A DNA stretch of 64,000 bases. It comes from Mycolicibacterium goodii (lineage in GTDB: Bacteria > Actinomycetota > Actinomycetes > Mycobacteriales > Mycobacteriaceae). Positions 20,920-58,602 of the stretch are shown here, piece after piece. The stretch is from the NCBI RefSeq assembly GCF_001187505.1, contig NZ_CP012150.1, positions 3,720,001 through 3,784,000 of the forward strand. The letters are read 5' to 3'. Within the stretch, counting starts at the first letter, position 1. Each line of letters starts with the position of its first letter. The position numbers were made by a program, and so were the translations under genes. The notes below the pieces were generated by a model that worked only from the letters and a program-made list of their open reading frames with translations, did not search any database and was not told the DNA's origin.

Positions 20920-21759
20920 ATGTGGCGTATGCGCGTGGTGCACTCGACGGGCTATGCCTACAAGTCACCGGTCACCGCGTCCTTCAACGAGGTTCGGCTG
21001 ACACCACGTTCGGACTCGCGTCAGAACGTGATCCTCAACCGCGTGGAGACCGTCCCGGCCACCAGGTCCTACCGGTATGTCGACTATTGGGGTACCGCGG
21101 TGACGGCGTTCGACCTGCACGCCCCGCACACCGAACTGGAGGTCACGTCGTCCTCGGTGGTCGAGACCGAGGTCGGTGAGAAACCGGAGGAGAAGGTCAG
21201 CTGGGACGATCTGCGGTCCGAGGCCGTGATCGACCGGTTCGACGAGGTGCTCAGCCCCACGCACTACACGCCGCGCAGCAAGCGCATCGAGCGTGTCGGT
21301 AGGAGCATCGCGAAAGAGCACGACCCGTTCGAGGCGGTGATCGCGGCCGCGCAGTGGGTGCGCAGCGAACTCGATTACGTCGCGGGTACCACGGGCGTGC
21401 ACTCGTCGGGGCTCGACGCGCTGCGCGAGGGTAAGGGTGTGTGCCAGGACTTCGCGCACCTGTCGTTGATCATGTTGCGCGGCATGGGTGTTCCGGCTCG
21501 ATACGTGTCGGGGTATCTGCATCCCCAAGGCGAGGCGGCGATCGGCGACACCATCGACGGCCAGAGCCACGCCTGGGTGCAGGCGTGGACCGGCGGCTGG
21601 TGGGACTACGACCCCACCAACGACAGCGAGATCAACGAGCAGTACGTCAGTGTCGGGGTGGGGCGCGACTATTCGGATGTGGCCCCGCTCAAGGGAATCT
21701 ACTCCGGCGAGGGGTCCACCGACCTCGACGTCGTCGTGGAGATCACCCGGCTGGCCTAG
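20920..21759 (+). CDS. transglutaminase-like cysteine protease-fold protein
   Basis: This is a predicted peptidase or amidase that would act on products of the ATP-grasp partner. In 279 residues the Cys-His-Asp triad is readable: C175 in GKGVCQDFAHL, H217 in QSHAWVQAW and an aspartate in WWDYDPTND (about 229-231). The N-terminal part (about 1-90) is the beta-rich bacterial N-terminal transglutaminase-like region. Its stop overlaps by four bases the stop of the convergent fusion gene, which marks the end of the conserved backbone here. Corresponds to Rv2409c. Confidence 0.88.
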   Translation: MWRMRVVHSTGYAYKSPVTASFNEVRLTPRSDSRQNVILNRVETVPATRSYRYVDYWGTAVTAFDLHAPHTELEVTSSSVVETEVGEKPEEKVSWDDLRSEAVIDRFDEVLSPTHYTPRSKRIERVGRSIAKEHDPFEAVIAAAQWVRSELDYVAGTTGVHSSGLDALREGKGVCQDFAHLSLIMLRGMGVPARYVSGYLHPQGEAAIGDTIDGQSHAWVQAWTGGWWDYDPTNDSEINEQYVSVGVGRDYSDVAPLKGIYSGEGSTDLDVVVEITRLA

Positions 21760-22904
21760 AACAGCCCACCGGTGAGCGAGAGGAGCTGGCGGGTGCGGGC
21801 TTTGGCGAGCTCACAGTAGTTTCGTGCGGCTTCTCGGGCGCCCACGCGGTCGCCGCGCTCGAGTGCCTCGAGCAGGTCGCGCTGGGCGGCGAGGAACGCG
21901 GTCGACGACTGGGCGGTGTTTCCGAAGCTGCGCATCATGACGTTCTTGATGCTCAGCGACCCGAACGCTGCGATCAGCAACGGGTTACCGGACAACGCGA
22001 CGATCGCTTCGTGGAACGCGTAGTTCGCGTCGAGGTAGGCGTGGAAATCCTCGAACCGGTCACCGACGAGGTGCCGCGACATCGTCTCGAGGTGGTGGCG
22101 CGCGATCGCGAGCTGCCCGGGGTCGGCCTGATCGCCGACGCAGTCGATGACTCCGAGCTCGATCGCGAGCCGCGCCTCGAACGTGGAGTCGGAGGTCTTG
22201 ATGTCGAACGGCGCGATGACATAGCCGCGTTGCGGGTCGCGCAACACCAACCCGTCTGCCGCGAGCCGGGTGAGCGCGTAGAACGCCTGCGCCCGGTCCC
22301 CTTCGAGACGGTCGGCGAGTTCGTCGACGGTGACGACCTGCTCGGCGGTGAACACTCGGCTGAGCACCATGTCGCGGGCCCGCGAGTAGGCACTGTCGTT
22401 CCGCTCGAACTCGAATCTGCCGAAGCCGCCCCGAAAGTAGGTCAGGGGAGCGCCGTCACTTGCCGTCGCGGACACCACGAACCCGAAGAACACCGAATGC
22501 GTTCCCCCGACCACCTGTTCGGTCACCTCACATTCGAGTGCGGCGATCGCATCGGACAGGATCACCACGTCCGCGATCCCGCGTTCGATCGGCACCCCGG
22601 CGAACTTGTCCGGTCGGGGAGCGGCGAACTGGTGGGCGAGATCGGCGTGTGACTGGCCCAGGACGTTGACGGTGTAGCGCCCGCTGCGCTCGATCGCGGC
22701 GGCCGTGGGCACCGCATTGTTGATGCACGCCAGCATCATCGGCGGCTCCATCGACAGCGAGGTGACCGAGCTGGCGGTCATACCGTAGTCACGGCCGTCG
22801 GCCCGGGTCGTCACGACGGTCACGCCACTTGCCAGGTGGCCGGCGACATGCCGGAACAGGTCCGTGTCGACCCCACCCCCGGTGGTCACATAGTCCTGGG
22901 TCAC
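21756..22904 (-). CDS. flavin reductase fused to a winged-helix/FCD (GntR-FadR type) regulator
   Basis: Two domains are fused in about 382 residues. Residues about 12-165 are a flavin reductase-like FMN-binding domain, with LASGVTVVTT, the GMTASSVTSLSMEPPMML motif and GRYTVNVLG. Such domains reduce FMN/FAD for two-component monooxygenases. Residues about 170-240 form a winged helix (VDELADRLEGDRAQAFYALTRL), and about 245-380 an FCD ligand-binding domain with FHEAIVALSGNPLL. The start is set at GTG 22904, six bases after CAGGAG; ATG 22910 is too close to that site. The architecture suggests a redox- or ligand-responsive regulator that also supplies reduced flavin to the monooxygenase at 26774-27862. 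That function is inferred. Confidence 0.85.
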   Translation of the reverse strand: MTQDYVTTGGGVDTDLFRHVAGHLASGVTVVTTRADGRDYGMTASSVTSLSMEPPMMLACINNAVPTAAAIERSGRYTVNVLGQSHADLAHQFAAPRPDKFAGVPIERGIADVVILSDAIAALECEVTEQVVGGTHSVFFGFVVSATASDGAPLTYFRGGFGRFEFERNDSAYSRARDMVLSRVFTAEQVVTVDELADRLEGDRAQAFYALTRLAADGLVLRDPQRGYVIAPFDIKTSDSTFEARLAIELGVIDCVGDQADPGQLAIARHHLETMSRHLVGDRFEDFHAYLDANYAFHEAIVALSGNPLLIAAFGSLSIKNVMMRSFGNTAQSSTAFLAAQRDLLEALERGDRVGAREAARNYCELAKARTRQLLSLTGGLF

Positions 22905-22965: not shown

Positions 22966-22980
22966 TCACGGACTTCGTGA
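22966..22980. promoter_or_regulatory. inverted repeat TCACG-N5-CGTGA, candidate operator
   Basis: A perfect five-base inverted repeat with a five-base spacer sits between the divergent fusion gene and the Gfo/Idh gene. The fusion protein contains a FadR-type DNA-binding domain, so autoregulation here is plausible. A similar CGTGA-N7-TCACG pair occurs before the amidohydrolase operon (about 38238-38254). Confidence 0.35.
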
Positions 22981-23054
22981 ATCTGGGCGGGGGTCGATGG
23001 CGCATGGGGACACGGCTGGGTTGATCGGTGACGGATTCCGACACGCCGGGCCGC

Positions 23055-23074
23055 GAAGTTCACGTTCGACGACA
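23055..23074 (+). promoter_or_regulatory. shared island motif, copy 1 (upstream of Gfo/Idh gene)
   Basis: The 20-base sequence matches the one at 28024-28043 at 18 of 20 positions; the joint consensus is GAARTTCACGKTCGACGACA. It ends 36 bases before the GTG of the Gfo/Idh gene. Two near-identical copies in the two main divergent regions of the island suggest a common regulator site. Confidence 0.5.
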
Positions 23075-23110: not shown

Positions 23111-24103
23111 GTGATCAATGCAGCCGTTGTGGGACTCGGATGGTGGGGTGGCAAGGTCGTCCGCGACCTGTCCGGAAGTCACGACGTCCGGGTGGTGACC
23201 GGGGTCGACATCAGTGCCGACGCGCGCGCCGCGGCGCGTCCGTATGTCGCCGATGTTCACGACAGCTTCGACGACGTCCTGCGCGACGACTCCGTGGATG
23301 CGGTGATCCTGTGCACCCCACACAAATTTCACACCGAGCAGATCATCGCTGCCGCCGCGCACGGAAAGCATGTTTTCTGTGAGAAGCCGCTGAGCGGTTC
23401 GGGGGAGGACGCCCGGCAGGCGGTCGCGGCGATCAAGGCCGCGGGCCTGCAGCTCGGTATCGGCCACGAGCGCCGATTTGAGCCGGCGGTGACCGATCTG
23501 CGGCAGGCGATCGCCGACGGCGAACTCGGGGTGCCGCTGATCTTCGAGGGCAACTTCAGCCAGGACAAGTTTCTCGACCTGCCGGCCGAGAACTGGCGGC
23601 TGTCGGCGATCGAAGCCCCGGTCGGTCCGTTGTCGGCGACCGGCATCCATCTGGTCGATCTCGCGATCAGCATCCTCGGCCGACCCACCCAGGTGTGGGC
23701 GCGATTGTCCACGCAGGCAACCGCATTCGCCAACGGTGACACTCTCGCGATCACGCTGGCTTTCGAAAAAGGCCAGACCGCGCTGATCACCGCGGTGCTC
23801 ACCACGCCGTTCGTCGGACGGGTTACCGTGCTCGGCTCAGAGGGCTGGGTGGAGATCCGTGACCGGACACACCCCGAGGCGCCGCAGGGCTGGGACGTCA
23901 CCCGTCAATTGCGTGGCCGACCGGCTACGTCGCAGTTCTATCCACCGCACTCGTCGGTGCGCGAGAACATCGAGACCTTCGCGATGGCCGTGGCGGGGAA
24001 AGTTCCCTATCCGGTCCCGCTCGACGAGATGGTCGCCAACGCCTGCACGTTCGAGGCGATCACCCGGTCGGCCCATACCGGCGCGGTCGAAACGGTGCGA
24101 TGA
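23111..24103 (+). CDS. Gfo/Idh/MocA family NAD(P)-dependent oxidoreductase
   Basis: This family oxidises or reduces sugars, cyclitols and related polyols or imines. The 330-residue protein has a Rossmann start (AAVVGLGWWGGKVV, about 4-17) and the EKPLSG motif with the conserved lysine near residue 95, followed by the C-terminal beta-sheet domain with GPLSATGIHLVDLAI. It starts with GTG 23111 and is followed closely by the PucR-type regulator. Together with the two paralogues at 34922-37160 it suggests a polyhydroxylated or sugar-like moiety in the substrate of this island; that is inference. Confidence 0.85.
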   Translation: MINAAVVGLGWWGGKVVRDLSGSHDVRVVTGVDISADARAAARPYVADVHDSFDDVLRDDSVDAVILCTPHKFHTEQIIAAAAHGKHVFCEKPLSGSGEDARQAVAAIKAAGLQLGIGHERRFEPAVTDLRQAIADGELGVPLIFEGNFSQDKFLDLPAENWRLSAIEAPVGPLSATGIHLVDLAISILGRPTQVWARLSTQATAFANGDTLAITLAFEKGQTALITAVLTTPFVGRVTVLGSEGWVEIRDRTHPEAPQGWDVTRQLRGRPATSQFYPPHSSVRENIETFAMAVAGKVPYPVPLDEMVANACTFEAITRSAHTGAVETVR

Positions 24104-24194: not shown

Positions 24195-25511
24195 ATGTCG
24201 ACGACCGTTCACCGGACCGCTGAGACCAATTCGCCCGTGACCTCGACAGCCGATGCGATGCCTGCGCCGCTGAACCTGTGGCGGGACGAGCGGCCCGTAC
24301 CCTCCTGGGTGCAGGAGGTCGCGCGCGGGTTCGACGTGGACGCGCTCGTCGACATCATCATCGGACGCTGCCTGGGCGTCGCCTTCCCCAACCACATCGG
24401 CGACGACGAGTTTCGTGCCCATTTGACGGCGAGTACCCGCGCCAACGCGCACTGCCTGAGATCGGTCATCGCGGGTGACATCGCCTTGGAGGATGTCTAT
24501 CTTGAGCAGGTGCTGTCGTTCGCGACGGTGCAGGCACAACTGCGGATCCCGCAGAAGTCGATGCAAAGGTCGTATCGGGTCAGTTTTTTCACGATGTGGG
24601 AGGCCTGGATCGGCTTCCTGCGCCGGGTGATCATCGACCGGGACATCGACCGCGACGAGGCCGCGCTGGCGATACAGCTCCTGACCCAGACGATCCTCGG
24701 ATACCAGGATTTCGTCGCCTCACAGGTGGCCGAGACCTACACACGCGATTACGAGGCGCTCAACCGGTCCCGTGCTCACATGCGACGCAATCTGGTGAAG
24801 GAGATCCTGCGGGGTGAGGGCAACGCGCTGGCGGTATCGGACACCGCGATCCTTTCCTACGACCTGAGCTGCCGGCATATCGCGGTCCTGCTGCCGACGC
24901 TGGCCGAGGGGGCCGCGACACAACTTTCGGTCGGCATGCGTGCCGCGGTCAGCTGTCAGCATTCGCTGGTCTATCCGCTGACGCTGAGTTCGACGGTGGT
25001 TTGGCTGGGGCGTATCGGGGAGTGGAAGCCGGCCGTTCTCGACGCCCTCGACGGAGTGCTCAAGGAGGCCGGAGTCGTCGCAACACTCGGCGGACCGCGT
25101 GCCGGCATAGACGGATTCCGCGAGAGCATGGAAGAGGCCATGGACGCCGAACGGATCCGGGCAGCATGGGGCGACTCGGGTGCACCCGCGGTGGTGCACC
25201 ACGACGATGTGGGCCTGGAGATCCTGCTCATGCGCGAGCCTGACCGGGCCAGGACGTTCGTCGAACGCGAACTCGGCCCACTCGCGCGGGACACGGTCGA
25301 GGCCGCGCGACTTCGTGAGACGCTGGAAGCGTCCTTCCGGTTCGGCTCACACGTCGCCGCGGCCGAGTACCTCCAACTGCACGAACACACCGTGCGCAAC
25401 CGCCTGCACAAGGTCGAGGAACTCATCGGGCGTCCGCTGGCCGAGCGTCGCACCGAATTGCAGGTCGCCGCCCGGCTCGTGCGCCTGTTGCCCGCTATGG
25501 GCCAGGCGTGA
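24195..25511 (+). CDS. PucR/CdaR-type transcriptional regulator
   Basis: This is a predicted activator responding to a catabolic substrate. The 438-residue product ends in the PucR C-terminal helix-turn-helix (about 375-435), with ASFRFGSHVAAAEYLQLHEH, TVRNRLHKVEELIGRP and ERRTELQVAARLV. The N-terminal half (about 40-240) is a helical sensor region of the type seen in many actinobacterial members, and a GGDEF-like/PucR-associated region lies between. The start is ATG 24195; the long upstream extension is a shadow of the Gfo/Idh gene. Its end overlaps by 17 bases the convergent alpha/beta-hydrolase gene. It is a candidate controller of the island. Confidence 0.82.
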   Translation: MSTTVHRTAETNSPVTSTADAMPAPLNLWRDERPVPSWVQEVARGFDVDALVDIIIGRCLGVAFPNHIGDDEFRAHLTASTRANAHCLRSVIAGDIALEDVYLEQVLSFATVQAQLRIPQKSMQRSYRVSFFTMWEAWIGFLRRVIIDRDIDRDEAALAIQLLTQTILGYQDFVASQVAETYTRDYEALNRSRAHMRRNLVKEILRGEGNALAVSDTAILSYDLSCRHIAVLLPTLAEGAATQLSVGMRAAVSCQHSLVYPLTLSSTVVWLGRIGEWKPAVLDALDGVLKEAGVVATLGGPRAGIDGFRESMEEAMDAERIRAAWGDSGAPAVVHHDDVGLEILLMREPDRARTFVERELGPLARDTVEAARLRETLEASFRFGSHVAAAEYLQLHEHTVRNRLHKVEELIGRPLAERRTELQVAARLVRLLPAMGQA

Positions 25512-26223
25512 GCAGCTGGGCTTCGAGCAGATCGGCGAACTGCCGCGGCGATTCAGCGACGCACGCATGCCTGCCCGGTAGCCAGTTCACGGTGCCCGCA
25601 CCGGTGGCCCGGGCCATCCGGATCGCTGCGTCGCGGAAGGGCTGCGCGTCGTCACGCCCGCACACCACCACAACCGGAACTTGCAGCGCGCCAAGGGGAT
25701 CGCTGAGATCCACCTCGGCCAACAGGTCGCACGCGCGTGCGTAGCCCTCCGGATCGGTACCTGCGAACACCTCACGCGCCCGCATCACCCGTGCGTCGCC
25801 TGCCGCGCCAAACTCAGGGGTGAACCACATTTCGACCATTGGCTCGACCAGGCTCTTCAGCTCACCTCGGCGGGCGACCGCGGCCCGGTCGCGCCACATC
25901 CGGCGCATCGGTTCCGGATACACCGGCACCGTGTCCACCAACACCACTGATGCGACGAGATCCGGCCGGTCCAAGGCAATCTGCTGGGCCACGATGCCGC
26001 CAAGGGACATCCCGACCAGGTGCACCGTCGTGCCGGGGTCGAGCCGGCCGACGACCGCATCGGCGAACGCGGCGACGCCGGCGCCGCGCGGCAGAGTCGC
26101 GGCCGAGCCGTGACCGGGCAGGTCGAACGCGATATGGTCGCGACCGCCCAGCTCGGCCCGGACCTCGGTCCAGAAGTTCAGGTCCGCTCCCAACGGGTGC
26201 AGAAACACGAGCGGGGTTCTCAC
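25495..26223 (-). CDS. alpha/beta hydrolase (enol-lactonase-like)
   Basis: This is a cytoplasmic hydrolase of 242 residues. The catalytic triad can be read as S73 in VGMSLGG, an Asp in VVCGRDDAQ (191/192) and H219 in LPGRHACV; the oxyanion region is FLHPLGAD near the N-terminus. The closest family memory is PcaD-like 3-oxoadipate enol-lactonase. The start is the GTG at 26223 that overlaps the stop of the upstream gene as GTGA; the longer frame upstream is a shadow. It is third in an operon with the luciferase-like monooxygenase and the carboxymuconolactone-decarboxylase-like gene, which fits hydrolysis of an oxygenation product. Confidence 0.85.
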   Translation of the reverse strand: MRTPLVFLHPLGADLNFWTEVRAELGGRDHIAFDLPGHGSAATLPRGAGVAAFADAVVGRLDPGTTVHLVGMSLGGIVAQQIALDRPDLVASVVLVDTVPVYPEPMRRMWRDRAAVARRGELKSLVEPMVEMWFTPEFGAAGDARVMRAREVFAGTDPEGYARACDLLAEVDLSDPLGALQVPVVVVCGRDDAQPFRDAAIRMARATGAGTVNWLPGRHACVAESPRQFADLLEAQLLTPGP

Positions 26224-26774
26224 GGCAGCCTCTCGTAATTGTCGGGAACCGTTGTGCGCGCGGCGTTCATGGTCATCGCCAGCGTCGTGTAGTAGCCCAC
26301 CGTCACAATGGCCTCCACGACGGCGACGTCGCCCGCGGCCATCACCGCGTCGGCGAACGTGTCGTCGCTGACGGCATGGTCGCGCCCGAGTTCGATGACC
26401 AGCCGCCAAAACGTGCACACGTCGGGCGGGCCGGTGGGCGCCCCCCGGGCCGCGACGGCGGCGATGACGTCCTCGCCCAGTCCGGCCTCACGCGCCATCG
26501 GAACGTGATGACCCCATTCGAAGTCCTGGTCCCAGTCACGCGCGACGAGCAGAATGACCAACTCGCGCAGATGATCCGGTAGCTCGGACTCGAAACGCAG
26601 GTATTCGCCGACGAGCTGCACACGGGTCATCAACTCGGGCGCCCGCAACAGCGGGACGAACGGGCCGAACAGCCCGCCGCGCGGCCCGGACGTTATCCGG
26701 TCCACCGCACGTTGTTGCTCCGGGCTGAGCGAGGCAGGCAGAGGCAACCGGTCGGCGGAGCCGTGTTCGGCCAT
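26220..26774 (-). CDS. carboxymuconolactone decarboxylase-like protein
   Basis: This 184-residue protein belongs to the AhpD/carboxymuconolactone decarboxylase fold. It has the LRELVILLVARDWDQDFEWGHH region with the EWGHH pattern of PcaC-type proteins and no CxxC pair, so an AhpD-like peroxidase role is unlikely. The start is ATG 26774, which overlaps the monooxygenase stop as ATGA. Placement between a luciferase-like oxygenase and an enol-lactonase-like hydrolase suggests decarboxylation or isomerisation of a ring-derived intermediate. The substrate is unknown. Confidence 0.83.
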   Translation of the reverse strand: MAEHGSADRLPLPASLSPEQQRAVDRITSGPRGGLFGPFVPLLRAPELMTRVQLVGEYLRFESELPDHLRELVILLVARDWDQDFEWGHHVPMAREAGLGEDVIAAVAARGAPTGPPDVCTFWRLVIELGRDHAVSDDTFADAVMAAGDVAVVEAIVTVGYYTTLAMTMNAARTTVPDNYERLP

Positions 26775-27862
26775 CAACCCGCATTCACCTTCGGCATTAC
26801 CTTCTCCGCCATGAGCTCCATGGAGCGTCGTGCAAGATCGGGATCCACCCAGTCGAGCCCGGCGTACACGAGTTCGCCGAACTCGCCGACCTCGTCCCGG
26901 AACCGCAGCAGCTGGTCCGCCACCGACTCAGGGGTTCCGGTGATGACCAGTTGATCGAGAACACCGTCTAGGGTGACCTCGTCGTCGGGTCGTTCGCGGT
27001 GGGTCTTGAACAGCTCCAGGCGACCGATCTTGCGCATCTTGGTCAGCATCTTGGAGTAGTAGTAGCGGTACGGGCTACGGGGATCGTCGCGGCCGTAGCT
27101 TTCGGCCACTGCCGGATCGTCGGCCACGAACACGGTCCTGGCCACCCGCCAGTCCCCGGTATCGGCCCGTTCACCGACCGACTCCCTGCCCTGGACATAG
27201 TTTGGCCAGTGCGTGGAGACCCACTGCGGCAGTAGGAAGTTCGCCGATAAAGGGTGGAAGTCCCGGGCACCCATGGTGATCACACCCTTGGAGAAGGGGG
27301 CCACCACCGTGCCCACGATCTCCGGACGCGGCTCCTGCAGGGTCTTGGGCAGTATGCCCACGCCAAGGTCGGGGTCGTAGGTCTTCACTGTCGTCACAGA
27401 AAAACGGCCGCCCTCGCGGACCAGAGAGTAGGGCGGCTCTGATTCCCAGATCGCGGTGATCACATCGATGGCCTCGGCAAAGATCGCGTTGCGGTCCTGG
27501 TCGAGGATGCCGAGTGCTTCGGCGTCCGAGGGGAGTGCGCCCGCGCTGATCCCGAGGATGAAGCGGCCCTCGGCGAGGTGGTCGAACATCGCCGAGTTGG
27601 CCGCGACGAGGACCGGGTGCTGCTGTGACAGGTTCGTGGTCCCGGTACCCAGGCGGATCTGCCGGGTGTCGGAGATCAGCGTTGCGAGAAACACCAGGCT
27701 GTTGGTGATGTTCTCGTGTCGATCCGTCAGGTGCTCGCCGATGAACGCGTCGTGAAAGCCCAGGCGGTCTGCCAAGATCACCGCCTCCCGGTCCTCGCGC
27801 AGGGTTTCCGACCAGGGCCGGCCGGCTGGGTGTAGTGGCATTGCGAAGTAACCGAGTCGCAT
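26774..27862 (-). CDS. luciferase-like (LLM) flavin-dependent monooxygenase
   Basis: This 362-residue enzyme of the bacterial luciferase superfamily uses reduced flavin and oxygen. It opens MRLGYFAMPLHPAG, has the ADRLGFHDAFIGEHLTD segment and the LAEGRFILGISAGALPSDAEALG region, and resembles limonene-monooxygenase-type members more than DszA or SsuD types. The start at ATG 27862 is fixed by GGAGG five bases upstream. It heads the three-gene minus-strand operon and diverges from the ABC importer over a 254-base region holding the shared motif. The only flavin reductase nearby is the fusion protein at 21756-22904. Confidence 0.86.
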   Translation of the reverse strand: MRLGYFAMPLHPAGRPWSETLREDREAVILADRLGFHDAFIGEHLTDRHENITNSLVFLATLISDTRQIRLGTGTTNLSQQHPVLVAANSAMFDHLAEGRFILGISAGALPSDAEALGILDQDRNAIFAEAIDVITAIWESEPPYSLVREGGRFSVTTVKTYDPDLGVGILPKTLQEPRPEIVGTVVAPFSKGVITMGARDFHPLSANFLLPQWVSTHWPNYVQGRESVGERADTGDWRVARTVFVADDPAVAESYGRDDPRSPYRYYYSKMLTKMRKIGRLELFKTHRERPDDEVTLDGVLDQLVITGTPESVADQLLRFRDEVGEFGELVYAGLDWVDPDLARRSMELMAEKVMPKVNAG

Positions 27863-28023
27863 TGGATCCTCCGGGTTACGAGGGACAGGCAAGTCCAGTC
27901 AACGGGCGTCGACGATCCGGATCAGTGGCGGTCGGATCGAATTTCGGCGGCCGACATCACGGCTTTCGTCACCGCCGCGCAATGGCCCGCGGCACGTCAC
28001 AGGCGGCGACACCTACCGCTGAT

Positions 28024-28043
28024 GAAATTCACGGTCGACGACA
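28024..28043 (+). promoter_or_regulatory. shared island motif, copy 2 (upstream of ABC importer)
   Basis: This matches 23055-23074 at 18 of 20 bases. It lies between the divergent monooxygenase operon and the ABC importer, 73 bases before the importer start, where an operator could control both directions. Confidence 0.5.
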
Positions 28044-36017: not shown

Positions 36018-37160
36018 TCAGGGTTTGAGGCCGGCGAGGAGCTCGCCGGGGTCTATCGGCAGGGACACGGGGCGGCCGGTTCGCGCCGACAGGTCCATTG
36101 CCATGGTGTGGATCAGATTGGCGTGTCCGTCGGCCGCCGTGGCGTGTGGTGTGTTGATACCGCGGCAGATTCGGGCGAACCAGGTGGTCGTCTCCTCACG
36201 CATCGGGCCCCACAGCATGCCGTCCGACACATCGCCCGGGGGATAGCTTCCGACGAAGTCGACGTGACGCGGCGCGGGTGGCTCGAATCCGCGACTGTTG
36301 TAGCCTGCGGGCTGCCCGATTTCAGAGGCCAGGATGACGTCGCGGTGGGTGTCCTCGACGTCGATCACACCGCGGGTTCCGACGATGCCGATCTCCAGTC
36401 CGTATACCGCACCCGGCCAGACCGTCGGCAGCGCCCAGTTGATGTTCATGCTGAACACCACCCCGTCGTCCATCGTGAAGATCCCCGACGTGCCGTCCTT
36501 GGTGCCGATCGGCCCCAGGGTGCGGTCGGTGGAGCGGGCGTACACCTCGACCGGTTTGCGGCCCTCCAGCAGCCACATGCACATGTCGAGGCTGTGAGTG
36601 CCGGACACCACCATGGGGGTGAGGTTGGTCGTGTCGGTCACTTTACGCAGCGTGGCCTCCGGGACCATGCGGTTCATGAACGCCCGCGTGACAACCGTTG
36701 TGACATCGCCGATCTGCCCGTCACGAAGGCGTTGCTTGACGGTTTGGAACCGTCGCCGGAACCGTTGCGTGTAGCCGACGACGGTGTCGACGCCGGCTTC
36801 GGTGATCGCGGTGAGCACGCGGGCAGAGTCCGCGGGATCGGTGGCCAGAGGTTTCTCGATGAACAGCGGCACGCCGAGTTCCACCGCGCGCAGGATCGGA
36901 TCGACGTGCTCGCGTTCGTCGGTGGCGATGATGACCGCGCCGATCTCGGGCCGGGAGAGCAGTTCGGTGATGTTCGTGGTGGCGAAGTCGGCGTCGGTGT
37001 CGGTGGCCAGATTCTTGAGCACCTGCTCGTCGATGTCGCACAAACCGAGCCAGCCGATGCCGGGGTACTCGCGAGCCAGCAGTGCGCGAATTCTGCCGAC
37101 CGTGCCACATCCGATGACCGCGAGTCCCACGGTGCCGTGCGCTGGTAATGCTGTGGTCAT
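36018..37160 (-). CDS. Gfo/Idh/MocA family oxidoreductase, copy 3
   Basis: This 380-residue protein has LAVIGCGTVGRIRALLA (about 13-29) for dinucleotide binding and FIEKPLATDPADS for the catalytic lysine region. It contains SGTHSLDMCMWLLEGRKP in the C-terminal domain. It overlaps the upstream amidohydrolase by four bases. With copy 2 it may form a two-step oxidation or a heteromeric enzyme; no direct evidence distinguishes these. Confidence 0.86.
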   Translation of the reverse strand: MTTALPAHGTVGLAVIGCGTVGRIRALLAREYPGIGWLGLCDIDEQVLKNLATDTDADFATTNITELLSRPEIGAVIIATDEREHVDPILRAVELGVPLFIEKPLATDPADSARVLTAITEAGVDTVVGYTQRFRRRFQTVKQRLRDGQIGDVTTVVTRAFMNRMVPEATLRKVTDTTNLTPMVVSGTHSLDMCMWLLEGRKPVEVYARSTDRTLGPIGTKDGTSGIFTMDDGVVFSMNINWALPTVWPGAVYGLEIGIVGTRGVIDVEDTHRDVILASEIGQPAGYNSRGFEPPAPRHVDFVGSYPPGDVSDGMLWGPMREETTTWFARICRGINTPHATAADGHANLIHTMAMDLSARTGRPVSLPIDPGELLAGLKP

Positions 37161-38173
37161 GCCAACCCCAGTAGTCGTGCGGCGTTTCCGCCTGCGATGA
37201 GATCTATCTTGGACTGATCCAGCCCGGGGACTTCGCCGAGCAATCCGAGTGGATCGTCCTCGCCCATGTCGTACGGGTAGTCGGTGCCCAGCACGACATG
37301 GTCGGCGCCGTACTTGCCGATGAGGTACTCAAGTTGATCGGGCTCGAAAACCATGGTGTCGAAGTAGAACTTGCGAAGGTAGTGGCTGGGAAGCCCCGGA
37401 ACCCCCTCGCGTACGTCGTCGCGCGCGTTCCAGCCGTGGTCAATCCTGCCTGCATAAGCAGGCAGGTAGCCGCCGCCGTGTACGACGACGATCTTGAGAT
37501 CGGGGTGGCGCTCGACCACGCCGTCGAAGATGAGGTGCGCGGTGGCCAAGGTGGCCTCGAACGCGTGGCCGATGATGTTGACGAAGTTATGGTCGGCGAG
37601 TCGCTGAGGGTGCGTGGCGCCCTGTGTGTGGATGACGACGACAAGACCGAGCTCCTCGACCTCGGCCCAGAACGGCTCCAGCCGCGGGCTCGAGATTTCC
37701 TCGCCCTCGATGTGCGTTCCGATCTCGATGCCGCGCATGCCGAGTTCTCCCGACAAGTAGCGCAATTCGGCGACCGCGGCCTCGGTGTCCTGGAACGGCA
37801 CGGTGCCCAGCGGCAGGAACCGGCCGGGATGCGCCGATGTCGCCTCGACGAGTTCCTCATTGATGATCCGCGCGACCTTGGCGCCCAGCTCCGGATCCGC
37901 CCAGTAGTAGTACTGGTACACCGCGACCGCGACGGCCTGGATGTCCACGCCCATCCGGTCCATGTCCGCCAGCCGGACGTCGAGAAAATCCATCTTCGGC
38001 CGGATCGTTTCGAGTTGGCGTCGGTTCACCGTTTGGGTTGTCGGATTGCCGTGTCCAAGCGCCACCTTGCCCGCCGACCGTGCGGCGTCGGCCATGAACT
38101 CGGCGGCCGGCCCGCATTCGCGATGACAGTGGATGTCGATCACCGGACCGTCATTGCGCCGGACCCGGCTCAT
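37157..38173 (-). CDS. amidohydrolase 2 (ACMSD-like) family protein, copy 2
   Basis: First gene of the six-gene operon, 338 residues. The metal-site residues are visible as IDIHCH near residue 14, VIHTQGATHP, VVHGGGYLPAY and VLGTDYPYD. It parallels the copy at 33849-34925 along most of its length (RLADMD-GVDI, RFEP/DPFW region, HPQLRV/HPDLKI). The start is ATG 38173 with GGAG nine bases upstream. A sigma-A-like promoter is seen at 38198-38226. Confidence 0.86.
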   Translation of the reverse strand: MSRVRRNDGPVIDIHCHRECGPAAEFMADAARSAGKVALGHGNPTTQTVNRRQLETIRPKMDFLDVRLADMDRMGVDIQAVAVAVYQYYYWADPELGAKVARIINEELVEATSAHPGRFLPLGTVPFQDTEAAVAELRYLSGELGMRGIEIGTHIEGEEISSPRLEPFWAEVEELGLVVVIHTQGATHPQRLADHNFVNIIGHAFEATLATAHLIFDGVVERHPDLKIVVVHGGGYLPAYAGRIDHGWNARDDVREGVPGLPSHYLRKFYFDTMVFEPDQLEYLIGKYGADHVVLGTDYPYDMGEDDPLGLLGEVPGLDQSKIDLIAGGNAARLLGLA

Positions 38174-39862: not shown

Positions 39863-41257
39863 TCAGGCGAGCTCGATGTTGTTCAGCAGATCGTTGTCGG
39901 TGAACGCACCACGGTATGCGGCGGCCGGATGGCTGTCGGGCAGCCGGTCACCGCGGCCGAGCAGCTTGTGCCGCAGCGTCCCCGACTTGTCGGTCGCGAT
40001 CAGACCGCGCTCACGCAGCGTGGGGAACAGGCGGTCGGCGACCTCCTGAAACGTCCCCGGCACGGTCGCGTGGTAGACGTTGATGCCGTCGACGCCGGCC
40101 TCACGCCACTCCTCGAGCTGATCCGCGATCTCCTCGGCGGTGCCGACGATGCGGTTGGCCCCCTCGAGAACCCACGCCATGTCGCGGATGGTCGGCTCGT
40201 CGCTGCCCGACGCCTCAGCCGCCCAACGGGTGAAGCTCTTGATCCCGGTGAACTCGCCGAGCTCACTGATCGGCGTGTCCAAGGGCAGCGCGCCCGCGTC
40301 GATCCCGGCATCGCCCAGTGCGTGCAACGCGATGCCCTCCAGGTCCAGATGGCGTTTGAGCTCATCGTTGCGCCGCACGGCCTCGGCATGCGTGTCGCCG
40401 ATGACGAACGACAATCCCTGCGCGAACGTGATGTCCTGGGGATCGCGGCCGTTCTGCGCGGCCAATGCCCGCGTCTCGGTGGTCAGCTTGTGCGCGGCCT
40501 CCGGATTCGGACTGCTGATGTAGACGCCTTCGGCGTTGCGGGCCGAGAACAGCTGCCCGGCCGGTGACGAGCCGGCCTGGAACAGCACCGGGGTGCGCTG
40601 CGGCGAGGGTGAGGTGAAATGGGGGCCCTCGACCTTGTAGCGCTTGCCGACGTGGTTGATCTTGTGGATTTTCGACGGATCCGAATGGATGCTGCGTTCC
40701 TTGTCCTGGACGAGGGCATCTTCGTCCCACGACCCCTCCCACAGCTTGTACGCCACATCGACGTACTCGTAGGCCCATTCGTACCGCTCGTCGTGCCCGA
40801 GGGTGCCCTCGTGACCGAAGCTGCGGAACATGTTCTCGTTGAAGCTCGTCACGATGTTCCAGCCGAGGCGGCCTTCGGTGTAGTGGTCCAGCGAGGACAT
40901 CCGGCGCGCGAAGTTGAACGGGTGATCCTGCACGATCGAACTCGTGAACACGATTCCCAGGTTCTCGGTGGCCGCCGCGAGGGCGGACGCCAGCACCGAG
41001 GGGTCGTTCACCGGGATCTGGATGCCGCCCTCGACGGATTTGCGCCAGTTGCCGTTCCACGGCGCCCGCAATCCGAACACGTCGGCGAAGAACAGCAGGT
41101 CGTAACCGGCCTTGTCGACGGCAGCGGCCAGCGACGTCCAGTGGCGCAGCGAGTTGAACTTGTGGTTCTGCGCCTCGGGCGCGCGCCAAAGGCCGTGCAG
41201 CACATGGGATGCGGTGTTCATGACGAACGCCGAGTAGTACAGCGGCCGCTTGCTCAC
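39863..41257 (-). CDS. NtaA/SnaA/DszA-type flavin-dependent monooxygenase
   Basis: This is a two-component LLM monooxygenase of 464 residues. The family pattern is clear: HGLWRAPEAQ near residue 22, DLLFFADVFG, the GRLGWNIVTSFN segment, RTPVLFQAGSSPAGQ and a C-terminal PAAAYRGAF. Relatives cleave C-S or C-N bonds (dibenzothiophene sulfone, nitrilotriacetate, acetylated alkylcysteines). Start GTG 41257 has AGGAG eight bases upstream. It closes an operon with a MetNIQ-type importer, which suggests that the imported ligand is the substrate. Confidence 0.86.
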   Translation of the reverse strand: MSKRPLYYSAFVMNTASHVLHGLWRAPEAQNHKFNSLRHWTSLAAAVDKAGYDLLFFADVFGLRAPWNGNWRKSVEGGIQIPVNDPSVLASALAAATENLGIVFTSSIVQDHPFNFARRMSSLDHYTEGRLGWNIVTSFNENMFRSFGHEGTLGHDERYEWAYEYVDVAYKLWEGSWDEDALVQDKERSIHSDPSKIHKINHVGKRYKVEGPHFTSPSPQRTPVLFQAGSSPAGQLFSARNAEGVYISSPNPEAAHKLTTETRALAAQNGRDPQDITFAQGLSFVIGDTHAEAVRRNDELKRHLDLEGIALHALGDAGIDAGALPLDTPISELGEFTGIKSFTRWAAEASGSDEPTIRDMAWVLEGANRIVGTAEEIADQLEEWREAGVDGINVYHATVPGTFQEVADRLFPTLRERGLIATDKSGTLRHKLLGRGDRLPDSHPAAAYRGAFTDNDLLNNIELA

Positions 41258-44022: not shown

Positions 44023-44151
44023 GCATGGGGAAACGCTTGGTGGACAGCGCTTCCGGGCGATCTCGACGGCCCGCGGTGAAGTCGGTCACAGGCCGCGGTG
44101 ATGGAACCGAATCCTCTAGGGTCGGCGCAGGACGACAATGAGATCGAACGG

Positions 44152-45240
44152 ATGAGGATGACCGGATACCCGCGATTTGGGGTGTGGGCGAACGTCCACG
44201 GCACCATGGCGGCAATGACGCACCCCGAGGATCCCGTCGACGCCTCCTGGCCGCGGGTTCGTGACCAGATCCTGCTGGCCGAAAGGCTCGGTTTCGACAG
44301 CACGCTGATCGCCCAGCACACGATGAACCCGCTCGACGAATCGCTCGACCAGCTCGACGCGTGGAGTGCCGCCGCGGCGGTCGCGGCGCTGACCGAGAAG
44401 ATCGAGATCATCGCCGCGGTCAAACCGTCGATCATCCACCCGACGGTCCTGGCCAAGCAGGCGCAGGGCATCGAGGAGATCAGTGGCGGCCGGTTCGCGA
44501 TCAACGTCGTGAACGCCTGGTGGATCCCCGACCTCGAGCGGTCCGGCATCGGAATGCTGGAGCACGGCGAGCGCTACGCCTACGGCACCGAATGGCTGCA
44601 CGTCGTGCGGCGCCTGCTCACCGGAGAGCGAACGACGTTCCACGGCAACTACTTCCACGTCGACGACTTCGTCCTGCATCCCACCGGCACGTTCCGAGAG
44701 CGGCCGCGGATATACCTGGGCGGGGAGTCCACTCCCGCGCGAGACCTGGCCGCTGCCGAGGCCGACGTGCTGTTCCTCAACGGGCAGGCCGAGGACGACG
44801 CCTACGAGCTGATCGCCGACGTCCGAAGGCGTGCCCGGGTCGGCCTGCACCCGCTGCGCTTCGGCATGGCGGCGTTCGTGGTGACGGCGCCGACACAGCG
44901 CGAGGCGGCCGAACTGCTGGAGTACCACTGGGAGCTCAACGCCAGAGACAAAGCTGCCGAAGGCGATACGATCGAGCGCTTCAGCCGGGACACCGATCCG
45001 GCATCGGTGATGTGGCAGCGCCTGCGCGAACGTCCGCACATCGGGCCCAACGGCGGCACCGCGGCCGGGTTGGTCGGCGACTACGACACCGTCGCACAGC
45101 GCATCGTCGACTGGTGCCGAGGCGGGATCGAGATTTTCATGCTGGCATTCCAACCGTTCGAGGCCGAGATGCGTCGCTTCGCCCAGGAAGTGATGCCGCG
45201 CGTACGCGCACTGATGGAGAAGACGGAGATCGCGTCGTGA
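44152..45240 (+). CDS. SfnG-like flavin-dependent monooxygenase
   Basis: This LLM enzyme of about 362 residues resembles SfnG, the dimethylsulfone monooxygenase that yields methanesulfinate. Shared features are GRFAINVVNAWW, the EHGERYAYGTEWLHVVRRL segment, YFHVDDFVLHPTG and RIYLGGESTPARDLAA. The start is unclear: ATG 44152 is used, ATG 44158 begins closer to the fold, and GTG 44098/ATG 44101 give longer forms. Its stop overlaps the SsuD-like start as GTGA, so the two are co-translated. Confidence 0.8.
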   Translation: MRMTGYPRFGVWANVHGTMAAMTHPEDPVDASWPRVRDQILLAERLGFDSTLIAQHTMNPLDESLDQLDAWSAAAAVAALTEKIEIIAAVKPSIIHPTVLAKQAQGIEEISGGRFAINVVNAWWIPDLERSGIGMLEHGERYAYGTEWLHVVRRLLTGERTTFHGNYFHVDDFVLHPTGTFRERPRIYLGGESTPARDLAAAEADVLFLNGQAEDDAYELIADVRRRARVGLHPLRFGMAAFVVTAPTQREAAELLEYHWELNARDKAAEGDTIERFSRDTDPASVMWQRLRERPHIGPNGGTAAGLVGDYDTVAQRIVDWCRGGIEIFMLAFQPFEAEMRRFAQEVMPRVRALMEKTEIAS

Positions 45241-52118: not shown

Positions 52119-53423
52119 GTGACAAGGGAGCTTCACCTGCTGGCCTTCGGCAACACCCGGTCAGCTGGGCCGTGGCGTCATCCCGCTGCCGACAACACGC
52201 CGGCCGGGGTGCGGCGCCGGCTGATCCGGTACGCGCAGACCGCCGAGGCCGGGACCTTCGACGCACTGTTCTTCGCCGACGGCCTGAACTACGGCCCGCC
52301 CGCGACGTGGGCGTACAAGATCACCGAGGATTTCGAACCGCTCACCGCCACCGCGGCGTTGTCGTCGGTGACCGAGCGGATCGGCCTCGTCGTGACGGGA
52401 TCGGCGACGCTGGCACACCCGTATCACCTGGCACGGCAGCTGCTCTCACTCGACCACCTCAGCGGTGGCCGGGCCGGCTGGAACGTGGTGACCAGCTTCG
52501 CGCGGGCCGCGGCGGACAACTTCAGCGCGCGCGGTGTGGTCGACCACGACGAGCGCTACCTCATCGCCGAGGAGGCGCTCGAGGTGGTCGGCAAGCTGTG
52601 GGACGAATGGGGCGAGGACACCGTCGTCGAAGACCGGGCGTCGGGAATCTTCAACGAGGTCAGCCGGATCCGCCCGGCCGATCACCACGGCCGGTACTTC
52701 GACGTCGCCGGGCCGATCGGTGCGGCGCGTTCGGTGCAGGGCCGTCCGGTGCTCTTCCAGGCCGGATCCTCCGACACCGGGAGGGCTTTCGCCGCCAGGC
52801 ATGCCGAGGTGATCTTCACCAGCCACGGCAACCGCGAGCGCGCGCAGACGTTCTATCGCCAGATCCACGAGCAGTCACGGCAATTCGGCCGGCCCACGCC
52901 GCCGCTGATCACGCCGTCGCTGCGCTACATCGTCGGGTCGACCGACGAAGAAGCCCGTCGCGCCGAACGCGAGGAGTACGAGTACTTCAGCCCCGAGTAC
53001 CAGGCCGGGTGGCTGCTGGAGGTCGACGTCGACGTCACCGGCGCCGACCTGGACGGGCCGGTGCCCGACTCGGCGTTCCCCGAGCACACCGAGACCCACC
53101 AGACCGCACTCGCCGGCTACCGGCACCTCGCGGGCGAGGGCAACCCGACGGTGCGGGAGTTCCTGTACCGCACGGTGAACGGCTGGGGTGCCGCGGTGGT
53201 GGGAACCCCCGAGCGCATCGCCGACACGATCGGGGAGTGGTTCACCACCGGCGCGGCCGACGGTTTCGTCCTGCGGGATTCCGGCCTGCCGGGCCAGCAC
53301 GAGCTGTTCGTCGAACAGGTGGTGCCGGTGCTGCGCAAGCGTGGCCTGTTCCGTCACGAGTACACCGGTACCACACTGCGCGCACATCTGGGCCTGGACG
53401 TCCCGCCGAGGTCGGTGTCGTGA
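52119..53423 (+). CDS. NtaA/SnaA/DszA-type flavin-dependent monooxygenase (first of pair)
   Basis: This 434-residue LLM enzyme has HPYHLARQLLSLDHLSGGRAGWNVVTSFA read in parts, DHDERYLIAEEALEVV, and RPVLFQAGSSDTGRAFA, the hallmarks of the DszA branch. It starts with GTG 52119 and overlaps the second monooxygenase as GTGA. A shared flavin reductase must be encoded elsewhere. It may cleave a C-S bond, by analogy with DszA and the alkylcysteine monooxygenases of Bacillus. Confidence 0.86.
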   Translation: MTRELHLLAFGNTRSAGPWRHPAADNTPAGVRRRLIRYAQTAEAGTFDALFFADGLNYGPPATWAYKITEDFEPLTATAALSSVTERIGLVVTGSATLAHPYHLARQLLSLDHLSGGRAGWNVVTSFARAAADNFSARGVVDHDERYLIAEEALEVVGKLWDEWGEDTVVEDRASGIFNEVSRIRPADHHGRYFDVAGPIGAARSVQGRPVLFQAGSSDTGRAFAARHAEVIFTSHGNRERAQTFYRQIHEQSRQFGRPTPPLITPSLRYIVGSTDEEARRAEREEYEYFSPEYQAGWLLEVDVDVTGADLDGPVPDSAFPEHTETHQTALAGYRHLAGEGNPTVREFLYRTVNGWGAAVVGTPERIADTIGEWFTTGAADGFVLRDSGLPGQHELFVEQVVPVLRKRGLFRHEYTGTTLRAHLGLDVPPRSVS

Positions 53424-56384: not shown

Positions 56385-57370
56385 CCGTCACCGAGAACAC
56401 TTTCGCCGACACATGGACCGTTCGGCAGGCCACCTCACTCGACTATCCCCATATCGCTGACTTCCTGGCCACCACAACGGGTCTGGGCGGGCGGAAATTC
56501 GCCGCGGATTCCCGCGACGTCGCCGAACAACTCGACGGGGCGCTGCCCGGCGCGGCAGTCGTCCTACGCGGTGAATCCGGCGACGTTCTCGGGTATGCCG
56601 CCCTGCACGGACCGGACACCGAAGAGCCGGAAGCGCTGGGCACCTTCGTGTTCGGCCCCTCGGCACCGGTCGAGGCGGTCCGGGACATCGTCGGCGAGAC
56701 CGTCGAGCACTTCCATTCGGCGGCGACCCCCGGTTCCTACCTGCGGGTGTACATCGGCGCCGACCAGCCGGCGGCGATCGCGGCGCTGGTGGACCGAGGG
56801 GCCCGCCGGGAGCGGCGGTTCGTCAGCACCCGTAAGTCGCTGCTCGGTGAAGACCCCGAACAACTCGCCGCCGCGCACATCGACGGACTCACGATCCTGT
56901 CGTGGGGCCAGGTGATCTCGGGTGGTCTCGGCGAACAGGTGCGCCGGTTGCAGTACGACACGTTCAGCGAGCACTTCGGCAACATGGCCAAGACGCCACA
57001 ACGGTGGGACCACCATCTGCACAGCCGGGCGTTCACCCCGGATTACAGTCTTGCCGCAGTCGATCGGGACGGAGTGGTGGTCGGATACGTCCTCGGGTCG
57101 ACGTACACCGTTCGCACCGAGCGGGGGGATCAGCGCAGCGCGCACACCGACTACATCGGTGTGCGCCGTGACCGAAGGGAGCGCGGCACCGGGGAGCTGT
57201 TGCTCAAGAAGATCTGGCTGGCGGCGCTGCGCCGTGGCTTCACGGCCGCGTCGTTGGGAACCGACATCAACAACGCCAGCAACGCGCACGTGTTGTACCG
57301 CCGACTCGGATACGTGGCGGTCCACGACGAATACGCGTATCGAATCGATGCCGAGGGGAATGGGAAATGA
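56381..57370 (+). CDS. tandem GNAT acetyltransferase, MshD-like architecture
   Basis: Two GNAT modules occupy 329 residues. The C-terminal one has an intact acetyl-CoA loop (RRDRRERGTGELLLKK, about 263-278) followed by the NASNAHVLYRRLGY motif; the N-terminal one (about 10-150) lacks a clear loop. This two-lobe plan is that of mycothiol synthase MshD, which acetylates a cysteine amine. In this operon an acetylation of an imported cysteine derivative is plausible but unproven. Confidence 0.82.
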   Translation: MTVTENTFADTWTVRQATSLDYPHIADFLATTTGLGGRKFAADSRDVAEQLDGALPGAAVVLRGESGDVLGYAALHGPDTEEPEALGTFVFGPSAPVEAVRDIVGETVEHFHSAATPGSYLRVYIGADQPAAIAALVDRGARRERRFVSTRKSLLGEDPEQLAAAHIDGLTILSWGQVISGGLGEQVRRLQYDTFSEHFGNMAKTPQRWDHHLHSRAFTPDYSLAAVDRDGVVVGYVLGSTYTVRTERGDQRSAHTDYIGVRRDRRERGTGELLLKKIWLAALRRGFTAASLGTDINNASNAHVLYRRLGYVAVHDEYAYRIDAEGNGK

Positions 57371-58602
57371 GCACGGAGAGCTTCTATCTGAAGCGGCCGA
57401 CCGGGTACGACGCCGAACTTCGATCGGTGTTCCGGCCGATCTTCGCCCGCATCGCCGAGGGCAATGTGGGCCGCGAACGCAATCGGATCCTCCCGCACGA
57501 GCAGGTGCGCTGGCTCAACGAGGCCGGATTCGGCACCCTGCGGATCCCGGCCGAGCAGGGTGGTTTCGGTGCGTCCCTGGAGCAGACCTTCCAGTTGCTG
57601 GCCGAGTTGGGGCAGGCCGACGCCAACGTCGCGCACATCTGGCGCAACCATCTGGCGTTCGTCGAGGACCGGCTCAACGCGCCGGTCACCGAGGAGAACA
57701 ACACCTGGATCAAGCGGTTCCTGGCCGGCGAGTTCATCGGCGGCGGGTGGACGGAGGCCAACAACGGCACGCTCGCCAACATCGCCACCACCATCACCGC
57801 ACAGGACGACCACTGGCTGGTGTCCGGCGCGAAATACTATGCCACCGGCAGCCTTTACGCCGATTGGCTCGATGTGATCGGGCGCGGTGACGACGGTGAA
57901 CTGTGGACCGCGCTGGTGCGCGCCGACGATCCTGGGGTGCAGCTCGTCGACGACTGGCGGGGCTTCGGGCAGCGCGCCACCGCGAGCGGATCGGCGCACT
58001 ACGACAACGCGAAAGCCGAACGCGGAAATGTGTTCCCGGCGATCGAGCGGTGCTCCTATCAGCCGCACTTCTATCAGATCGCGATGCTTGCCGTGCTGAC
58101 CGGCATCACCAAGGCCGTTCAGCGTGACGGCTCTGCGGCGCTCAAGCAGCGCAAACGCAACTACCCGCAAGGACTTTCGGAGGTGCCGTCCGACGACGCG
58201 CAGCTGCTCCAGGTGATCGGTGAGGTGTCGGCGGAGGCGTTCGGCGCCGAGGCCGCCCTGACCCTGAGCGCGCGTACCCTCGACCGCGTGGTGGCCGGCC
58301 GGCTCGCAGGCAGCGAGGACCGGGCCCGCCAACTGCTGATCGATGCCGAGGTCGCGGTCACCCAGGCCCAGCTGGTGATCATCGGCGCCGCGCTGCGGTC
58401 CACCACCAAGGTGTTCGACGCACTCGGTGCCTCGGGCGTGTCCGAAGAACTGGGCCTGGATCGCCATTGGCGCAACGCCCGAACCCTCGGGTCGCACAAT
58501 CCCGTGGTCTACAAGGCACGGATTCTCGGCGACTGGTTCATCAACGGCAAGGATCCGGTGCCGGACCTGGTGTCGCGGGGGCGTGGCGGTCAGGGCAACT
58601 GA
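57367..58602 (+). CDS. DszC/SfnC-like acyl-CoA-dehydrogenase-fold monooxygenase
   Basis: This 411-residue flavoprotein has the acyl-CoA dehydrogenase fold but the marks of the oxygenase branch: GFGTLRIPAEQGGFGASL, WTEANNGTLANI, GAKYYATGSLYADWL and a C-terminal HWRNARTLGSHNPVVYKA segment with the histidine-containing loop typical of DszC-type enzymes. These use reduced flavin to oxidise sulfur or nitrogen. It overlaps the GNAT gene (ATGA). Confidence 0.86.
   Translation: MSTESFYLKRPTGYDAELRSVFRPIFARIAEGNVGRERNRILPHEQVRWLNEAGFGTLRIPAEQGGFGASLEQTFQLLAELGQADANVAHIWRNHLAFVEDRLNAPVTEENNTWIKRFLAGEFIGGGWTEANNGTLANIATTITAQDDHWLVSGAKYYATGSLYADWLDVIGRGDDGELWTALVRADDPGVQLVDDWRGFGQRATASGSAHYDNAKAERGNVFPAIERCSYQPHFYQIAMLAVLTGITKAVQRDGSAALKQRKRNYPQGLSEVPSDDAQLLQVIGEVSAEAFGAEAALTLSARTLDRVVAGRLAGSEDRARQLLIDAEVAVTQAQLVIIGAALRSTTKVFDALGASGVSEELGLDRHWRNARTLGSHNPVVYKARILGDWFINGKDPVPDLVSRGRGGQGN

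Follow-up and report, generated by a model that had tools for sequence, protein, structure and literature searches.

A flavin reductase fused to a GntR/FCD-type module and linked to a luciferase-like monooxygenase in Mycolicibacterium goodii: a candidate for an exapted regulatory domain

Introduction

When a flavin reductase turns over in the absence of substrate, NADH is wasted and peroxide is produced. 3,6-Diketocamphane 1,6-monooxygenase, an oxygenase of the luciferase-like monooxygenase (LLM) class, obtains its reduced flavin from a separate reductase, which is a plain, single-domain enzyme. The reductase of p-hydroxyphenylacetate 3-hydroxylase from Acinetobacter baumannii (C1-HPAH, or AbHpaC) carries a C-terminal MarR domain that is reported to inhibit flavin reduction until substrate binds, the stimulation being at least 30-fold (PMC10816480). 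The same review calls substrate-stimulated flavin reduction uncommon and names AbHpaC as the case (PMC10816480). Reductases with a C-terminal helix-turn-helix (HTH) also occur in the clusters for 4-chlorophenol, 4-fluorophenol and 4-nitrophenol, and these tails are expected to take part in substrate recognition; of these reductases, CphB serves the 4-chlorophenol oxygenase (PMC6205950). In the FCD-family transcription factor Atu1419, side-chain contacts to DNA come from Ser44, Arg45, Thr46, Arg49 and Arg31, and the metal ligands are N137, H141, H192 and H214 (PMC7797058).

Here we describe a gene in which a flavin reductase, a GntR-type winged helix and an FCD domain share one reading frame. 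Tails of the MarR or HTH kind have been described on reductases before, and the FCD version with an LLM partner is new; our literature search, over open-licence papers judged by title, found no paper on a flavin reductase-GntR/FCD architecture. Databases carry the family under the name 'flavin reductase', and the label that one source puts on many of the fusions, 'DNA-binding GntR/FadR family regulator', is probably misleading.

Results

The fusion is one intact frame with three domains

The window, by which we mean the whole 64,000-nucleotide stretch that was analysed, contains the fusion gene at 21756..22904 on the minus strand (stop included), an intact single open frame of 382 codons encoding 382 amino acids. 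The GTG start at 22904 has AGGAG 6 nt upstream, and its codon is ATG in six mycobacterial relatives (L041-L046, read by eye). The initial annotation had joined a reductase, a winged helix and an FCD domain in this frame, and a Pfam search agrees, with all three over their cut-offs: Flavin_Reduct at residues 22-163 (22416..22841, minus strand; 140.6 bits, cut-off 27), GntR at residues 171-230 (22215..22394, minus; 31.1 bits, cut-off 27) and FCD at residues 242-363 (21816..22181, minus; 62.3 bits, cut-off 24.3). The reductase domain, which appears intact, passes the curated cut-off for the split-barrel short-chain flavin reductases (PF01613, the HpaC/NtaB/RutF kind), and the MarR models fall below their cut-offs on the tail (MarR_2 16.7 bits against 27; MarR 14.3 bits against 24.6). 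The nearest protein match, 96% identical, is labelled Mycolicibacterium smegmatis; the host genome is 7.1 Mb. A frameshift or chimera as the origin of the fusion was considered and rejected, since the same domains recur in 120 of 120 listed relatives and in most of two further lists.

The view that this is the only flavin reductase in the window also held for PF01613, as one of the genome's ten PF01613 matches falls there. The window is nonetheless rich in users of reduced flavin: three more luciferase-like monooxygenases and one acyl-CoA-dehydrogenase-like flavoprotein lie at 39866-41257, 44098-45237, 52119-53420 and 57367-58599, yet it has the one PF01613 reductase.

The fusion family is patchily distributed and forms one group

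Among the best 120 of 502 listed relatives, all 120 have Flavin_Reduct and FCD, 116 also have GntR, and lengths run from 326 to 422 amino acids. Searches seeded with divergent fusions returned further fusions in Rubrobacter, Bacillota (Scopulibacillus, Sporosarcina), Euzebya and Streptomyces, among others. The spread is patchy in genome searches that scored the best four or five candidates per genome and may have missed some: a match over both the reductase and the C-terminal module was found in 5 of 396 genomes of the phylum sample, and a full-length fusion match in 4 of 394 genomes of the class sample (the other three of seven rows cover the reductase part only) and in 4 of 401 genomes of the family sample. 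The three-domain architecture is old and widespread.

In a tree of C-terminal modules from 38 fusions and 27 standalone proteins, the fusions form one group (100/99), which points to a single capture of an FCD regulator by a flavin reductase in this sample. Two standalone proteins (L100 and L101) are sisters of the fusions (joint group 100/100), and the window fusion is nested within the fusion group on a long branch.

Several loci depart from the common arrangement. In two fusions (L105:5556-6710 and L106:5416-6519) the winged helix is below the GntR cut-off (17.4 bits) or has no Pfam GntR match, with FCD over its cut-off. The fusion of Acrocarpospora pleiomorpha (L068:2028-3135) is split over two frames, by an assembly error or as a broken gene, and adjoins homologs of the window amidohydrolase (37157-38173) and of a Gfo/Idh gene. 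A plain reductase similar to the reductase half of the fusion (153 bits) lies beside a fumarylacetoacetase-like gene at L102:5454-5993, in a genome (G373) that also has a distant fusion. The window's own genome holds an unfused counterpart at L035:797-1974 (C1 near 592-593 kb): the gene of a canonical, standalone FCD regulator, its start overlapped by a flavin reductase gene of the same strand.

The winged helix has lost the paired arginine contacts

Recognition-helix residues were counted in 347 fusions, a non-random set made up of the window fusion, 344 proteins from three overlapping listings (the best 120 each of 502, 570 and 502) and the fusions of L103 and L106; four of the 347 have neither His nor Gln at place 341 and belong to neither subfamily defined below. 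As controls we used 29 standalone FCD proteins of the same genome, which has 55 FCD matches; 30 loci were taken and one (L022) was dropped for having no match. The Arg45 and Arg49 places are both basic in 0 of 347 fusions versus 21 of 29 controls, and in neither of the two standalone sisters; the pair is still absent from a thinned set of 103 fusions below 70% identity. The Arg49 place is basic in 3 of 347 fusions (27 of 29 controls) and is Phe, Tyr, Trp or His in 297 of 347 (1 of 29 controls). Ser or Thr occupies place 44 in 34 of 347 fusions versus 26 of 29 controls, and the Arg45 place is Arg or Lys in 160 of 347 versus 23 of 29. The window fusion has R204 at the Arg45 place and F208 at the Arg49 place; F208 and Y209 are invariant in 121 of 121 close relatives. 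The standalone sisters keep Ser44-Arg45-Ser46 and already have His at the Arg49 place, so loss of the Arg49 contact may predate the fusion.

On average the winged helix carries a net charge of -1.8 (window's subfamily) or -2.8 (H341 fusions), against +0.2 in the controls. Among the genome's 55 FCD proteins, each over the cut-off, the window fusion has the weakest GntR match (34.7 bits, the next 39.0, paired by hand), and in the Euzebya-type relatives P0241-P0277 the precomputed Pfam assignments lack GntR in 33 of 37 and include FCD in 36 of 37. Within the window's subfamily, mean entropy is lower in the recognition helix (0.74 bits) than in the reductase domain (0.86 bits). Judged from these residues, the paired DNA contacts of the GntR/FCD type are lost in the fusions. 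The proposal that the protein binds operator DNA is consequently not borne out: the paired arginines are missing throughout, the winged helix is on average net negative and the GntR match is the weakest of 55. DNA binding by the fusion is not supported, though not disproved; with Arg45 kept in the window fusion, and Arg49 missing also from the standalone sisters, which presumably bind DNA, binding in another mode is conceivable.

The FCD pocket is kept in most fusions and altered in the window's subfamily

The places of the FCD metal ligands read N294-H298-Q341-Y363 in the window fusion. Of the 223 fusions that have His at place 341 (H341), 213 show the canonical N/D-H-H-H set, as do 20 of 29 controls. 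None of the 120 fusions with Gln there (Q341, the window's subfamily) does; 119 of these 120 have Gln and Tyr at the second and third His places. Three LLM1-linked fusions (L049, L050 and L059; LLM1 is described below) have an intermediate N-H-H-Y pocket, read from a small alignment in which P0121 and L108 were misaligned and left out of the counts. The retention of N/D-H-H-H in the H341 fusions and its absence from the Q341 fusions suggest that, in most other fusions, the pocket persisted beyond the DNA-reading function of the helix, and that the LLM1-linked lineage remodelled it. The ligand of the window's subfamily may differ or be absent.

The fusion is linked to an LLM operon

The most constant neighbour of the fusion is LLM1 (26774..27862, minus strand; PF00296, 126.5 bits), whose linkage makes it the probable oxygenase partner. 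Its operon continues, on the minus strand, with a carboxymuconolactone decarboxylase family protein (26220..26777; PF02627, 35.3 bits) and an enol-lactonase-like alpha/beta hydrolase of uncertain start (25495..26223; PF12697, 75 bits; TIGR02427, 150.4 bits, below the cut-off of 255.85). The initial annotation had placed the fusion next to an LLM monooxygenase operon. The two are linked, but not adjacent: some 5 kb separate the fusion from the start of the LLM gene, and the divergent Gfo/Idh/MocA oxidoreductase gene (23111..24103, plus strand; PF01408, 78.3 bits), a PucR-type gene and the remainder of the LLM operon lie in between.

The sampled genomes support a stronger link to the LLM monooxygenase than could be seen from the window. 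An LLM1 ortholog lies within 10 kb of the fusion in 26 of 29 relative loci by tblastn, the misses being two short contigs (L051 and L068) and L057, and the 26 including a fragment at a contig end (L050) and a partial match at 45% (L063). The remaining 24 orthologs are 74-88% identical, and the fusions of the 29 loci 56-81%. Fusion and LLM1 operon are immediate, divergent neighbours in Geodermatophilus, Pseudonocardia, Modestobacter, Blastococcus and Microbispora, and in L125 LLM1 and the fusion lie about 20 bp apart on one strand, by first possible start. Across the 394 class genomes, LLM1 occurs in exactly the four with a full-length fusion, that is, the window's own and three others. Across the 401 family genomes it occurs in three, two of them beside the window's own, and each has the fusion; in the fourth, which has a distant fusion (37%) with the same coordinates as a Dietzia lutea plasmid copy, no LLM1 ortholog was found.

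The solved structure nearest LLM1 is that of 3,6-diketocamphane 1,6-monooxygenase (4uwm, 78.5 bits). Against NCBIfam the top model is the FMN-dependent TIGR04027 (79.1 bits, cut-off 412.9), followed by an F420 subfamily. The locus presents linked LLM oxygenase and flavin reductase genes, as in two-component LLM monooxygenase systems. Given the 4uwm relative and the enol-lactonase-like hydrolase in the operon, a route from ketone through lactone to acid is a fair guess, no more.

A separate PucR-type gene accompanies tandem dyads

A PucR-type regulator gene (24195..25511, plus strand; PF13556, 42.2 bits; PF17853, 29.6 bits; start 24195 or 24258) is the candidate transcription factor of the cluster. 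It recurs in 22 of 29 loci and is absent from three short contigs (L050, L063 and L068) and four Paractinoplanes loci. Tandem dyads of the form TGTC-N7-GTGA precede both the fusion (23029..23074, minus strand; 31 bp apart, the second copy with one mismatch) and LLM1 (27997..28043, minus; 32 bp apart), and sequence reading places a single TCAC-N7-GTGA closer to the fusion start (22966-22980, minus).

At a spacing of 31 or 32 bp and with at most two mismatches per pair, tandem dyads stand before both genes in the window and L041-L046; eleven other loci have them at a single cluster promoter. By this rule, which was read by eye and counted afterwards and so is fitted to these loci, the window and the 22 PucR loci have the tandem in 17 of 23 cases, with six PucR loci lacking it. 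The four long PucR-less loci, all of one genus and all with the fusion, have no tandem at the cluster promoters; one short PucR-less contig (L050) has it. One shuffle gave 0 tandem matches against 28 observed, two of which (window, L056) are outside cluster promoters. The single dyad occurs 8 times in the window against a shuffle mean of 2.97, with 3 of 100 shuffles reaching 8, and of the two genomic matches to a longer pattern with GTGAASTTSG, one lies in the window. When shared short dyads were sought, the divergent and pooled groups hardly exceeded their block-shuffled controls, and the mycobacterial group reached 5 of 7, where shuffling gave at most 4. The 17 of 23 loci, set beside the four long PucR-less ones, weakly favour the PucR-type protein as the binder of the tandem dyads, which would probably be the cluster operator, and as the regulator of these genes.

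Other fusions accompany other oxygenases

In Rubrobacter (L104, named through P0121, an H341 fusion) the genes next after the fusion encode an HpaB-type oxygenase (300.5 and 190.3 bits) and a DUF1028 protein. The corresponding cluster of Bacillus badius has, before HpaB, a plain reductase with 65.6% identity to the reductase half from Rubrobacter; the cluster also contains DUF1028. An LLM gene lies about 2 kb from the fusion in L103, four fusions of the phylum sample have other neighbours, and no oxygenase was recognised beside the fusions of L105 and L106 among the part of their neighbours scanned. The role that stays constant across the fusions, as read from their sequences, is that of a reductase.

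Discussion

Our analysis makes it moderately probable that a transcription-factor module has been exapted as the regulatory domain of a reductase dedicated to LLM1, and that it is gated by a ligand. The fusion would be the NAD(P)H:flavin reductase of a two-component system with LLM1 as its oxygenase, and its C-terminal half an FCD-family module turned to the regulation of an enzyme. The winged helix would no longer read DNA in the manner of its family, the rebuilt recognition helix (F208-Y209) instead contacting protein. The FCD pocket would sense a compound of the pathway and so gate the use of nicotinamide and the release of reduced flavin, confining the expenditure of reducing power, and the formation of peroxide, to times when substrate is present. 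Transcription would be left to a separate regulator, probably of the PucR type. An earlier idea that the protein responds to a pathway ligand is plausible on this account, with the response acting on catalysis and not through transcription. The two AlphaFold models (pTM 0.54 and 0.58) leave the relative placement of the domains open.

An alternative that we regard as unlikely is that the C-terminal module is a scaffold without ligand gating, serving either to dimerise the reductase or to dock it on LLM1 so that flavin passes directly between them. Such a role would suit the invariant F208 and Y209 (121 of 121) and the aromatic letters at place 208 (297 of 347 fusions), as expected for a protein contact, along with the lost metal ligands of the window's subfamily and the tight linkage to one oxygenase. 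However, an N/D-H-H-H pocket kept in 213 of 223 H341 fusions is hard to explain without a ligand or metal, and the tails are found with different oxygenase classes.

It is improbable, in our judgement, that the protein doubles as reductase and transcription factor, occupying an operator and tying expression to a ligand or to the redox state of flavin. The initial annotation had proposed a reductase combined with a DNA-binding regulator; of this, the three-domain fusion, the intact reductase domain and the LLM link stand, and the operator binding does not. GntR and FCD both exceed their Pfam cut-offs, residues 167-382 match whole GntR/FCD regulators in fold, Arg45 is kept in the window and conserved tandem dyads lie upstream of the gene, all of which would fit a DNA binder. 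Against this, no fusion among 347 has the Arg45-Arg49 pair, the winged helix is negatively charged (-1.8 and -2.8, compared with +0.2 in controls), and GntR is absent in 33 of the 37 listed Euzebya-type relatives (P0241-P0277). Moreover, 22 of 29 loci carry a distinct regulator gene, and the dyads are missing from the four long PucR-less loci that carry the fusion. Finally, that the C-terminal half is a functionless vestige is very improbable: some lineages have a poor GntR match or none, FCD is gone from the likely CphB and plain reductases serve similar operons, but full-length tails persist across very many taxa and the recognition helix of the window's subfamily varies less (0.74 bits) than the reductase domain (0.86).

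Taking the exapted, ligand-gated module as the preferred reading, a fuller history is about evenly balanced between right and wrong: an FCD factor, captured once, became a ligand sensor that regulates an enzyme, its DNA helix turning into an internal contact and its pocket being conserved in most lineages and retuned in that of LLM1, to gate FMNH2 to a Baeyer-Villiger-like LLM. If true, this would be an FCD domain controlling catalysis instead of transcription. As a second, independent solution, from an FCD regulator, it would show that the ligand domains of transcription factors are reused on enzymes. It would also provide a large family whose tail ligands ought to reveal what the partner oxygenases act on.

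Among known systems, the nearest solved relative of LLM1 is the diketocamphane monooxygenase, and the VanR-group FCD factors Atu1419 (6za3) and TM0439 (3sxy) differ from the fusion as standalone DNA binders with Ser44/Arg45/Thr46/Arg49 and an Asn/Asp-His-His-His metal site (PMC7797058). The plasmid gene in L107, from Pseudarthrobacter chlorophenolicus A6, is likely to be cphB, as suggested by strain and gene order. Its product is homologous to the fusion over the reductase and winged helix (41.6% over residues 12-232) and, as in the fusion, its recognition helix (DRSSAYHAL) is without Arg49. Unlike the fusion, it has 259 amino acids, no FCD, a winged helix below the GntR cut-off (21.7 bits) and an oxygenase of the HpaB kind.

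The closest parallel is C1-HPAH (5zc2, 5zyr), which, like the fusion, joins an N-terminal flavin reductase to a C-terminal winged helix from a transcription-factor family and serves a two-component monooxygenase, as we propose for the fusion. C1-HPAH is the top Foldseek match of both models, over 262-266 columns at 9-16 Å rmsd and about 21-23% identity over aligned columns; the domains thus agree and their arrangement differs. The C1-HPAH tail is reported to be of the MarR type and to lack FCD, and its partner oxygenase does not belong to the LLM class (PMC10816480), whereas the tail of the fusion is GntR/FCD. Gating by ligand has been shown for C1-HPAH; for the fusion, we infer that binding of a ligand to the FCD domain controls catalysis and that F208-Y209 contacts protein. 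By analogy with the substrate-relieved tail of C1-HPAH, the FCD module should gate the reductase to which it is fused.
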